64,000 nt of DNA, from assembly GCF_001886715.1 (NCBI RefSeq), contig NZ_CP018082.1, forward strand, positions 5,146,001-5,210,000, in the 5' to 3' direction. The stretch is from Nocardia mangyaensis (GTDB lineage Bacteria > Actinomycetota > Actinomycetes > Mycobacteriales > Mycobacteriaceae). The translations under genes were made by a program, and so were the position numbers. Positions 4,342 to 23,524 of the stretch are shown here, one piece after another (position 1 is the stretch's first letter; the number at the start of each line of letters is the position of its first letter). A model generated the notes under the pieces. That model made no database searches. It was given only the letters and a program-made list of their open reading frames with translations, and was not told where the DNA came from.

Positions 4342-5652
<1,311 letters not shown>

Positions 5653-19138: not shown

Positions 19139-22100
19139 TTACAACATGCAGCTGACGCAGCCCTCCACCTCGGTCCCTTCGAGAGCCATCTGTCGCAGGC
19201 GGATGTAGTAGAGCGTCTTGATGCCCTTGCGCCACGCGTAGATCTGGGCCTTGTTGAGGTCGCGAGTGGAGGCGGTGTCCTTGAAGAACAAGGTCAGCGA
19301 CAAACCCTGGTCGACGTGCTGGGTGGCCGCCGCGTAGGTGTCGATGATCTTCTCGTAGCCGATTTCGTAGGCGTCGTCGTAGTACTCGAGGTTGTCGTTG
19401 TCGAGGTAGGGGGCCGGGTAGTAGACGCGGCCGATCTTGCCTTCCTTGCGGATCTCGATCTTCGACGCCACCGGGTGGATCGAGCTGGTGGAGTGGTTGA
19501 TGTAGGAGATCGAACCGGTCGGCGGGACGGCCTGCAGGTTCTGGTTGTAGATGCCGTACTCCCGGACCGACGCCTCGAGCACGCGCCAATCGTCCTGGGT
19601 GGGGATGTGCACGCCCGCGTCGGCGAACAGCTGGGCGACCCTGGCGGTCTTGGGTTCCCACACTTGATCGGTGTACTTGTCGAAGTACTCGCCGGAGGCA
19701 TACTTGGAGTCGGCGAAGCCACCGAAGGCGCTGCCGCGCTCCTTGGCGATCAGGTTCGAGGCCCGGATCGCGTGGTAGACCACGGTGTAGAAGTAGATGT
19801 TGGTGAAGTCAACACCCTCTTCGGAGCCGTAGTGGACCCGCTCCCGCGCCAGGTAGCCGTGCAGATTCATCTGCCCGAGGCCGATGGCGTGGGACTCGTT
19901 GTTGCCCTGCTCGATCGAGGGCACCGAGTAGATGTGGGTCTGGTCCGAGACCGCGGTCAGCGCACGGATCGAGGTCTCGATGGTCTGACCGAAGTCCGGC
20001 GAATCCATCGCCTTGGCGATGTTGAGCGAACCCAGGTTGCACGAGATGTCCTTGCCGACCTTGGAGTAGGACAGATCGTCGTTGAACTCCGAGGGGGTCG
20101 AGACCTGCAGGATCTCCGAGCACAGGTTCGAGTGGGTGATCTTGCCTGCGATGGGATTAGCTCTGTTGACCGTATCTTCGAACATGATGTAGGGGTAGCC
20201 CGACTCGAACTGCAGCTCGGCGATGGTCTGGAAGAACTCACGCGCCTTGATCTTGGACTTGCGGATGCGCTTGTCGTCGACCATCTCGTAGTACTTCTCG
20301 GTGACGTCGATATCGGCGAACGGCTTGCCGTAGATGCGCTCGACGTCGTACGGCGAGAACAGGTACATGTCCTCGTTCTTCTTCGCCAGCTCGAAGGTGA
20401 TGTCGGGGATCACCACACCCAGCGACAGCGTCTTGATCCGGATCTTCTCGTCCGCGTTCTCGCGCTTGGTGTCGAGGAAGCGGTAGATGTCGGGGTGGTG
20501 CGCGTGCAGGTACACCGCACCGGCGCCTTGACGCGCACCCAACTGGTTGGCGTAGGAGAAGGAGTCCTCGAGCAGCTTCATGATCGGGATGACACCCGAG
20601 CTCTGGTTCTCGATCTTCTTGATCGGCGCGCCGTGCTCACGAATGTTGCTCAGCAGCAACGCGACACCGCCGCCACGCTTGGACAGCTGCAGCGCGGAGT
20701 TGATCGAGCGCCCGATCGACTCCATGTTGTCCTCGATGCGCAACAGGAAGCAATTGTGCACAACCGTGCCGCGGATCGAATAGGTGTGTGTGCCCTCGAC
20801 ATGGAGGTTGTACACCTTCTCCGGCGCTTCGGTCGTGCACGTGATCGCACGAACACCGTAGACATGGCGACCGTGCACAACCTGGTAGGTCGCGCGCTTC
20901 GTACCCTTACGCCCGACGTAATTGTGCAGGTTCTTACCGATGTCGAAGATGAATTCTTCGTTGTTGCCGGGGAGACCTGGGATGAAGACCTGACCGGTCG
21001 TGTTGCCCGCTTGATTGACGTACTGGCGAACGGTCGACACGATGCTCAGGCGGCGCAGCATCAGCTGCACCTGGTCGATGAGTTCAGGATTGACCAGGTC
21101 GAGCACCATCCCACCGGTGGTGCTGCAGCCGTCCCCACGGAACAACCCGGCGAGCAGCCCGCGCTGGAAGTCCTCGTTCGCGGTCAGAACATCGTGGTTG
21201 AGCCGCTTTTCCCCGTAGCCGGTTCCTGCCAGGGACATCAGCAGCGACGCAACGACCTTGCTGTTGCACACCATCTTCGTCGAGTGATCCGAGTGATTGG
21301 TGTGCAGGGAAAGATCCGCGCCGAACACCTGCTTGAATGCCATACCGAGCTCGACGTGATATTCGGCCTCGTGTGCTCCGAGCGTGAAGTGGACGCCGTT
21401 CGGCTGAACGCCCTCGACGCCCGACCGTTTGGACACATACCCCTCGGCGACATACCAACCGAGAACCAAACCCAGTTCGTAGGACTCCTCGACGTAACGG
21501 TTGACCGAGACGAAGCGCTGGCTGTGCCGCTGCTTGTTGCGATGCTTGGCATCGACATTCACCTTGCGGATCGCGCCATCGACCTCTTCGTAGACGCCTG
21601 CGCCGACATACTCCATGAGGTCGAACGTGCGCCGGTCGCGCTCACCGAGCGGTGCGGTGGTCACGACGAAGTCGGACGGTTGCACGTCCTTGGCGGCCAA
21701 CCACACAAAGCCGTTGAACGGGTCTGCCCCGTCACCGTCGATCAACGTTTCGACATCCCTCGACGTCCACACCAGGATCGGATGCTCGGGCGTACAGCGA
21801 ATCGGCTCTTTGTGACCGAAGTGCGAAATCGACACCAGCGCTTCGGTATTCGGATTCTCGATCATAGCTTCCACCACACGGTAAGACCCGTCGTGCGAAA
21901 GTACCTTGTCACCCGGCAGCAACGTCTCGATAGCCCGCTGGCCGTCGATCGTGTCCACGGGAGTACCTGCGGGGAAGCACGACACCGGCTCGCCGCGCTG
22001 CTTCTTGCCGGAGTTGAGGAAGGTGGGGGTGGCGGGCTGGAAACGGCCGTCGATGATCTCGTCGACCAGCTTGCCCGCGAGCACCTCGTCGCCCGCGGCG

Positions 22101-22552
22101 AGGGTGAGCGCGACCATGCAGACGCGATCCTCGAAGCGCTCCAGGTAGCGCTTGCCGTCGAAGGTCTTGAGCGTGTAAGAGGTGTAGTACTTGAACGCGC
22201 CGAGGAAGGTGGGGAACCGGAACTTCTTGGCGTAGGCCTGCTGGAACAGCTGCTTGACGAAGGCGCGATCGTACTGATCGAGCACCTCGGTCTCGTAGTA
22301 GTTCTCCTTGACCAGGTAGTCCAGCTTCTCGTCCAGGTTGTGGAAGAAGACGGTGTTCTGGTTGACGTGCTGCAGGAAGTACTGGTGCGCGGCCTCGCGG
22401 TCCTTGTCGAACTGGATCTCGCCGTCGGGGCCGTACAGGTTCAGCATCGCGTTGAGAGCGTGGTAGTCCAGAACCTCGCCCGCGTCGGCACGCGTGGCGG
22501 CCTGCTCTAGACGGGCTGACTTGCCTGCCGGTGCTGTGGTTGCTGTTGCCAA
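19139..22552 (-). CDS. nrdE: ribonucleotide reductase class Ib, alpha subunit, with intein
   Basis: Catalytic subunit of class Ib ribonucleotide reductase; 1137 codons, of which 409 are an intein, leaving a mature enzyme of 728 residues, normal for NrdE. The N-terminal extein (residues 1-191) includes [11 protein letters not shown] and [16 protein letters not shown]. The C-terminal extein starts [16 protein letters not shown], whose Cys corresponds to the N-terminal redox cysteine of the active site. Later come NLCSEILQ (radical-site Cys region), [28 protein letters not shown], and the C-terminal relay [10 protein letters not shown] that accepts electrons from NrdH. The start is a TTG at 22552, overlapping the end of nrdI by 46 nt. 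The enzyme works with NrdF. Confidence 0.96.
20753..21979 (-). other. intein with LAGLIDADG homing endonuclease in nrdE
   Basis: A 409-residue in-frame insertion, residues 192-600 of the precursor. Splicing motifs: first residue Cys in [13 protein letters not shown] (block A), [10 protein letters not shown] with the TxxH of block [14 protein letters not shown] (block F), and VVHN as the last residues (His-Asn) followed by extein Cys. Between them are two LAGLIDADG motifs, [13 protein letters not shown] and [13 protein letters not shown], so it is a full-length intein with a DOD endonuclease whose acidic residues (E, D) look intact. Removing it joins EPVS to CFLLRIEDN, the uninterrupted NrdE sequence. 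Insertion immediately before a catalytic cysteine makes activity depend on splicing. Confidence 0.95.
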
Positions 22553-22977
22553 AACAATCCCAATCCCTCTCGGACGCGCGCGACGTCCTCAGCGGTTCCC
22601 ATGAGTTCGAAGCGATACAGGTACGGCACCCCGCTCTTGCGCGAGATGATGTCGCCTGCGGCGCAATAGGTATCGCCGAAGTTCGTGTTTCCGGCCGCGA
22701 TCACCCCGCGCAGCAGGGCGCGGTTGTGCGGGTCGTTGAGGAACTTGGCGACCTGCCGCGGTACGAGGTCCTTGTCGGACCGTTGTCCACCCATCACGTG
22801 CCGACCACCCCCGTAGGTGGGGGTGATCAGCACGTAGGGTTCGTCGACGCGCAGCGATTCAGCGGTGTGCAGTGGTAGTCGAGTGGCCGGGAGACCCAGC
22901 TTCTCGACGAAACGATGAGTGTTCTCCGAAGCGCTGGAGAAGTAGACCAGCCCGCCCGGAGTCGTCCGCTCGGGCAT
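22507..22977 (-). CDS. nrdI: NrdI flavodoxin-like maturation protein
   Basis: NrdI, 156 residues, the FMN protein that supplies oxidant for assembly of the Mn-tyrosyl radical cofactor of NrdF. Signature segments are [18 protein letters not shown] (phosphate/FMN loop), [10 protein letters not shown], and [20 protein letters not shown]. The ATG at 22977 has a strong GAAGGAGG site. It sits between nrdH (24-nt gap) and nrdE (46-nt overlap), the standard nrdHIE order. Confidence 0.95.
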
Positions 22978-23001: not shown

Positions 23002-23235
23002 CTAAGCGGCCGCGACGGCGAGCGACTTGATGCGGTCGGGACGGAAGCCCGACCAGTGATCCTCGCCCGCGACGACGACCGGAGCCTGCAGGTAGCCGAG
23101 CGCCATGACGTAATCGCGCGCCTCGGCGTTCTCGGAGATGTCGATGATCTCGTAGTCCACCCCGACCTTGTCGAGCGCCTTGTAGGTGGCATTGCACTGG
23201 ACGCAAGCGGGCTTGGTGTACACGGTGATGGTCAT
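23002..23235 (-). CDS. nrdH: NrdH glutaredoxin-like electron donor
   Basis: NrdH redoxin, 77 residues: MTITVYTKPACVQCNATYKA with the C-V-Q-C redox pair. It has glutaredoxin-like sequence but is reduced by thioredoxin reductase, and passes electrons to the C-terminal cysteines of NrdE. The C-terminal SGFRPDRIKSLA is the conserved W-S-G-F-R-P-D motif of NrdH. The ATG has GGAGAGGGAG upstream. First gene of nrdHIE; its transcript has a leader of roughly 240 nt from the NrdR-box region. Confidence 0.96.
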   Translation of the reverse strand: MTITVYTKPACVQCNATYKALDKVGVDYEIIDISENAEARDYVMALGYLQAPVVVAGEDHWSGFRPDRIKSLAVAAA

Positions 23236-23476: not shown

Positions 23477-23524
23477 ACACTACACCTAGTGTCCGACAGA
23501 TGTGAACAACACAAGGTGTTGCGA
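23477..23524 (-). promoter_or_regulatory. pair of NrdR boxes upstream of nrdHIE
   Basis: Box 1 is ACACTACACCTAGTGT (23477-23492), a nearly perfect palindrome; box 2 is ACACAAGGTGTTGCGA (23509-23524). Both keep the C-w-A and T-w-G positions of the NrdR consensus, and the starts are 32 bp apart, exactly as at nrdF. They lie about 240 bp upstream of nrdH, so the start of transcription must be distant from the coding region. The stretch 23236-23476 between them and nrdH holds no gene I can support. Confidence 0.8.

Follow-up and report, generated by a model that had tools for sequence, protein, structure and literature searches.

The nrdE gene of Nocardia mangyaensis, which encodes the alpha subunit of a class Ib ribonucleotide reductase (RNR), is interrupted by a 409-residue intein directly before the cysteine equivalent to C225 of Escherichia coli NrdA. 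The gene lies in a stretch of 64,000 nucleotides (contig NZ_CP018082.1, positions 5,146,001 to 5,210,000), which was analyzed as a whole and is referred to as the window. With a probability of about 93%, the element is a canonical class 1 intein whose LAGLIDADG homing endonuclease looks intact, and its position in nrdE is one at which inteins land recurrently. It adds an allele to the C225-site NrdE (RIR1) inteins of Nocardia, Mycobacterium, and kin and differs from them in nothing essential, since gene, insertion point, and architecture are the same and the amino acid identity is 70% to 91% (N. caishijiensis 91%; cluster P0015, N. farcinica, 80%). This intein family is widespread and known; the general point is why RNR inteins meet catalytic cysteines. 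The gene appears to be a clean case of this coincidence, in which one thiol would serve first in splicing and then in catalysis, and no backup for the enzyme was found in the genome.

The intein and the cysteine that follows it

A profile search assigned the 1137-residue translation to NrdE (TIGR04170, 1245 bits versus a cut-off of 750). The class Ib signature is present with core cysteines of the C225, C439, and C462 type and a C-terminal CVSC motif. The alignment with E. coli NrdA covered the first 712 codons of its gene, which end short of this motif. Residues 192 to 600 have no equivalent in any of the three NrdE structures that were aligned (9l6o, 1pem, and 6cgl). Translation of the frame and alignment placed the intein exactly to the base where the original prediction had it, and also confirmed the terminal His408-Asn409 and the +1 residue Cys601 (Table 1). 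Cys601 fell opposite C178 of chain 1pem_A, and in E. coli K-12 NrdA it corresponded to C225; C439 and C462 are the remaining core cysteines there. The predicted equivalence of the +1 cysteine and C225 is thus borne out by both alignments, which rule out the contrary case that Cys601 is not the redox cysteine. The roles of C225, C439, and C462 in E. coli NrdA are established enzymology, C462 being the redox partner of C225. The thiol predicted to resolve the splicing intermediate is therefore the one that mature NrdE has as its N-terminal redox cysteine.

The intein was compared with its relatives in a panel of 46 sequences (20 from Nocardia genomes plus 26 from other named loci whose intein DNA differs). 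C1, T63, H66, H408, and N409 are invariant in all 46. Of the presumed endonuclease acids, E179 is kept in 46 and D283 in 45 of the inteins, in line with the original description of the LAGLIDADG motifs as complete. Hint_2, LAGLIDADG_3, and TIGR01443 all scored above their own cut-offs. The AlphaFold2 model of the intein (predicted local distance difference test score, pLDDT, 75.2; predicted template modeling score, pTM, 0.59) resembled PI-SceI, the Mtu RecA intein, isolated splicing domains, and I-DmoI in a structure search. The element thus combines the features of class 1 inteins (Cys1, TxxH, the His-Asn end, a cysteine at +1, a Hint fold as modeled, and exactly empty sites in relatives) with those of a LAGLIDADG homing endonuclease, namely two motifs with acidic residues. 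Shorter relatives at the same site had no LAGLIDADG Pfam match (P0098 to P0102, 931 amino acids; P0105, 909 amino acids).

Both parts of the intein are under purifying selection. Among the 20 Nocardia sequences, the median pairwise ratio of nonsynonymous to synonymous divergence (dN/dS) was 0.086 for the splicing part, 0.097 for the endonuclease, and 0.119 for the extein. The low value for the endonuclease shows that it is maintained by selection rather than decaying.

For the residues of the N. mangyaensis precursor, the following course is proposed. After translation, Cys1 would form a thioester with Ser191, and the N-extein would pass to Cys601. Asn409 would then cyclize, and an acyl shift would link Ser191 to Cys601. 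The product would be an unscarred NrdE, in which Cys601 could now serve as the redox-active cysteine of the C225 type. The endonuclease, in turn, would cleave intein-free nrdE genes, into which the element would be copied; some lineages may also lose the intein exactly. We infer splicing, endonuclease cutting, and the losses besides gains alike.

Table 1. Features of the nrdE precursor, its intein, and associated nrd loci in the window
Feature	Position	Strand	Remarks
nrdE precursor	19139..22552	-	TTG start; 1137 aa; class Ib RNR alpha subunit with intein
N-extein (residues 1-191)	21980..22552	-	C-terminal letters RGEPVS
Intein, 409 aa, class 1, LAGLIDADG homing endonuclease inside	20753..21979	-	precursor residues 192-600
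Cys1, predicted first splicing nucleophile	21977..21979	-	invariant in 46/46 inteins
Block B TxxH (T63-P-E-H66)	21782..21793	-	invariant in 46/46 inteins
First LAGLIDADG motif, 14 residues	21434..21475	-	presumed catalytic acid E179
Second LAGLIDADG motif, 13 residues	21119..21157	-	presumed catalytic acid D283; Pfam LAGLIDADG_3
Blocks F and G, terminal His408-Asn409	20753..20815	-	TIGR01443
Cys601, predicted +1 extein nucleophile	20750..20752	-	E. coli NrdA C225; residue 178 of 1pem_A
C-extein	19139..20752	-	holds all five highly conserved NrdE cysteines
Codon equivalent to E. coli C439 (thiyl radical)	20120..20122	-	unoccupied in this gene; holds a second intein in other RNRs
Codon equivalent to E. 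coli C462	20039..20041	-	
nrdI	22507..22977	-	overlaps nrdE start; TIGR00333
nrdH	23002..23235	-	TIGR02194
nrdF, partner subunit	4342..5304	-	about 14 kb off; TIGR04171
NrdR-box-like inverted repeat ACACTAGGTGTAGTGT	23477..23492	.	perfect 6-bp arms; upstream of nrdHIE
NrdR-box-like inverted repeat	5404..5419		perfect 6-bp arms; upstream of nrdF

Insertion before active-site cysteines in other reductases

The placement before a catalytic cysteine is not singular: it recurs at the C225 and C439 sites in many RNRs, and some precursors related to the Nocardia intein hold a second intein directly before the C439-type cysteine. Such proteins were gathered in a collection of 201 sequences, which includes searches with the inter-site segment of long double-intein proteins. 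The length filter of that search excludes most intein-free enzymes, and the collection took the best 120 of 510 matches in one search and 42 in the other. By motif count, the C225 site was occupied in 129 of the 201 proteins, the C439 site in 61, and both in 22, the C225 state being undecided in 26 and the C439 state in 21. The C462 site was never occupied among the 140 proteins with a recognizable C462 motif. A gap-tolerant alignment to the NrdE of the window gave intein-like junctions at C225 in 123 rows, at C439 in 46, and at both in 16, with 12 of the 201 proteins set aside as poorly aligned and five without an insert of more than 90 residues. The alignment is noisy, in that five of the 46 C439-site rows show a wrong +1 letter and rows of the NrdA type align poorly to the NrdE reference, with scattered positions. 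The queries bias the collection to the C225 and C439 sites, and further sites are possible. NrdE inteins of this kind are catalogued as RIR1 alleles in InBase. Names of other RIR1 insertion sites are in print (PMC1635734).

In the 141 rows of class Ib, just five cysteines reached a conservation of at least 95% (192, 402, 429, 723, and 726), the three core ones being present in all 141. The C-terminal pair (723 and 726) is functional in RNR. Judged by their E. coli equivalents, the core three are functional as well, so that every strictly conserved NrdE cysteine has a function. Because of this, an intein with cysteine as its +1 residue at a conserved position is almost bound to precede a catalytic one, which explains the recurrence of the coincidence. 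Cysteine is not the sole possible +1 residue, since 28 Ser/Thr positions were equally conserved in the same rows. The best explanation for the placement before a catalytic cysteine is a combination of two ordinary constraints, since a homing element depends on target DNA that its hosts are unable to change and a spliced one depends on Cys, Ser, or Thr as the +1 residue. That inteins prefer catalytic and ligand sites is established (PMC5874633, PMC2814812). Among the titles and opening lines of abstracts listed in a search of open-access papers, none deals with a Nocardia NrdE intein or with the C225/C439 coincidence.

The same recurrence could be read differently, with C225 and C439 of the RNR alpha subunit as dedicated intein sites at which oxidation would stall splicing and reduction together, the intein acting as a gate on the supply of deoxyribonucleoside triphosphates (dNTPs) that some lineages tolerate or exploit. 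We regard this as very unlikely. Double-intein RNRs occupied at both C225 and C439 would be useful substrates for studying the order of splicing and its redox sensitivity.

A few members of the collection stand apart. Other long inserts without an intein-like junction pair were seen by eye in P0069, P0090, P0097, P0117, P0124, P0125, P0136, and P0137 and are probably fusions or frame errors. The Pfam columns suggest NrdI-NrdE fusions for P0122, P0127, P0136, and P0141 and NrdE-NrdF fusions for P0124 and P0137, either real or due to frame errors. P0192, a frame of 1300 amino acids, combines an RNR alpha domain with DNA polymerase sliding-clamp domains, as judged by Pfam accession, and may be a fusion or an assembly artefact.

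Distribution and movement of the element

In a search of 150 Nocardia genomes, NrdE was found in 148 (E ≤ 1e-60), the two misses being rated 78% and 88% complete. The intein is present in 20 of the 148 nrdE genes, and the junction is uninterrupted in the other 128. The intein-like insert is thus no chance resemblance. The survey for empty sites proposed with the original prediction yielded 128 exactly empty junctions, of which 127 share one 14-residue sequence and one reads CFLLRMED. Three further genomes with weak partial matches to the intein query (E 3e-5 to 9e-4) were excluded from the count. In the wider family, the intein was detected in 22 of 401 sampled genomes and five of 31 genera (E ≤ 1e-60). 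Named carriers include Mycobacterium, Mycolicibacterium, Mycolicibacter, Lolliginicoccus, and Gordonia, and among 41 named public loci, 40 have the same architecture, while the remaining one is truncated at a contig end. With 20 of 148 sites occupied and exact empty sites at hand, Nocardia is a good natural system for measuring intein gain and loss in a sole-copy gene.

Four lines of evidence indicate horizontal movement. First, on a quick extein tree built after removal of 180 nt on each side of the site, the intein label requires 18 changes (14 of them forced by starred branches), compared with a mean of 19.1 for shuffled labels; 108 of 500 shuffles were as low as 18, so that presence is nearly unrelated to descent in this gene tree. 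Second, in approximately unbiased (AU) tests on the 20 bearers, the extein tree failed for the intein data (1.9e-50), and the extein data likewise rejected the intein tree (1.75e-7). Third, G052 and G059 differ by a synonymous divergence (dS) of 0.048 in their exteins, compared with 1.27 in the splicing part and 1.25 in the endonuclease part of their inteins. Fourth, the GC content at third codon positions in the nrdE of the window is 0.78 in the intein versus 0.91 and 0.92 in the exteins. The element is therefore horizontally mobile and has been gained repeatedly; probably it has also been lost. The suggestion that it may still be mobile holds at the level of the family.

A possible short codon footprint lies 3′ of the site. 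At least two AT-ending codons at +2 to +6 were found in eight of 20 occupied versus 11 of 128 empty genes (Fisher p 8e-4), and codons +1 to +8 differed as well (Mann–Whitney p 0.0035). This footprint could be a co-conversion scar, a trace of old intein loss, or a mark of endonuclease-resistant sites. It is held to be a hint because 70 codon positions were inspected and phylogenetically independent pairs gave no significant difference. Codons +2 to +6 correspond to window positions 20735-20749, where the window's own nrdE is without the footprint.

Several results weigh against a mobile, canonical intein. The Pfam model Intein_splicing stayed below its cut-off (20.7 versus 35.8 bits). Intein distances follow extein distances in part (r = 0.38, Mantel p = 0.0045), which points to a partly shared history. 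Binned third-position distances revealed no homogenized flank around the site, and the median p-values of the independent pairs for the footprint were 0.125 and 0.219. A close phage carrier was not found in IMG/VR, where a single query gave no match and an alignment query gave 69 distant loci (19% to 44% identity).

Two further ideas were discarded. Long co-conversion tracts were rejected; the sole bin in which occupied genes were markedly closer (a value reached by 1.5% of random draws) lies 409 to 529 codons downstream, far from the site. No close phage vector emerged from the IMG/VR searches or among cultured phages, the best of which is described below. A plasmid search gave two distant matches only.

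The scatter also bears on the proposal, made with the original prediction, that splicing is a checkpoint under redox or metal stress. Oxidants or Zn(II) would block Cys1 or Cys601, NrdE would stay in its precursor form, and dNTP supply would pause until the stress ends. Both junction nucleophiles are thiols, one of them the redox cysteine of NrdE; three further intein cysteines, C62 beside block B, C238, and C285, are conserved in 46, 45, and 46 of the 46 inteins; and the operon looks NrdR-regulated. A precedent is the reported inhibition of M. smegmatis DnaBi1 splicing by H2O2 via a disulfide of the catalytic cysteine (PMC6195587). However, sensitivity to thiol reagents would be expected of any cysteine-based intein, the intein is absent from 128 of the 148 Nocardia, and its near-random scatter is unlike that of a retained regulator. 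In addition, none of the six N-extein residues before the junction (RGEPVS) is a cysteine. The checkpoint is thus not supported, and we consider it very unlikely.

Old vertical inheritance would assume that the intein entered once, long ago, in the common ancestor of Nocardia, Mycobacterium, and kin and survives only where it was not lost. The site is indeed common to Nocardia, Mycobacterium and relatives, Gordonia, and Lolliginicoccus, some intein and extein clusters agree (e.g., G064/G099), and the distances correlate as given above. The AU tests reject congruence both ways, however, and the near-identical exteins of G052 and G059 hold distant inteins. Vertical inheritance is already contradicted for part of the set and appears highly improbable as the general account, compared with repeated horizontal gain of a homing intein.

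Genome context and related systems

The host genome consists of a single contig of 7.31 Mb and is rated 100% complete. Genome-wide, one PF02867 match was obtained, which is nrdE itself (ESSENTIALITY). NrdD (PF13597) was not found in this genome, to which the class III search was confined apart from 14 control genomes, six of which gave matches in the same search. The claim of an essential context agrees with this sole reductase gene. A non-splicing relic or assembly artefact with the reductase supplied elsewhere has a negligible probability, for although splicing is a prediction here, the 1137-codon frame is free of stops in a complete single-contig genome, no other reductase gene was found, both intein parts are under strong purifying selection, and 40 of the 41 public loci have the same architecture. 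A single PF02867 gene was found in 19 of the 20 intein-bearing Nocardia. The remaining one, G064, has a second PF02867 frame (contig C1:38911-40302, 696 amino acids), which is intein-free by length.

The original prediction had called the operon NrdR-repressed. A search pattern based on the NrdR-box consensus gave two mismatch-free sites in the window, one upstream of nrdHIE and one upstream of nrdF (Table 1). Up to one mismatch, there were four strand matches compared with 0.26 expected, and none of 100 shuffles gave as many. NrdR is encoded in the genome. The box-like repeats and the regulator gene are thus in place, and NrdR control of nrdHIE and nrdF is plausible, as is repression itself.

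The closest systems outside the C225-site family share some of these features. Corynebacterium phage P1201 also has a class Ib NrdE whose +1 cysteine is an active-site cysteine; in contrast, its 159-residue mini-intein occupies the C439 (thiyl radical) site. The P1201 nrdE is reported to be functional (PMC3653736). The R2 intein of Aquifex aeolicus likewise lies among catalytic residues of an RNR, but in the other subunit, and neither of the two iron ligands that flank it is its +1 residue, Cys230. This intein separates two iron ligands and splices with Cys230 at +1, and the intein-bearing construct loads more iron (PMC8772380). DnaBi1 of M. smegmatis is a replication-gene intein of a related genus, but it belongs to class 3, with Ser at +1 and an internal catalytic Cys118, which forms a disulfide with Cys48 (PMC6195587); the NrdE intein has class 1 residues including Cys1 and is not of the class 3 type with an internal catalytic cysteine. 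PI-SceI and the Mtu RecA intein share the Hint splicing fold, and PI-SceI also carries an inserted LAGLIDADG endonuclease, whereas the host genes differ and the identity in structural alignments is about 14% to 23%.

The best cultured phage is Enterococcus phage vB_Efa29212_3e, whose intein shares the insertion point and has 46.6% identity. The site is empty in its relative EF24C, and the N-extein DNA of the two is 98.4% identical over 495 nt, which suggests a recent gain or loss of the intein in this lineage. In vB_Efa29212_3e (L069, 3506-5323 and downstream), the NrdE frame is, by eye, also cut shortly past the intein by an HNH-endonuclease-like insert, and the NrdE of EF24C is uninterrupted with 716 amino acids.
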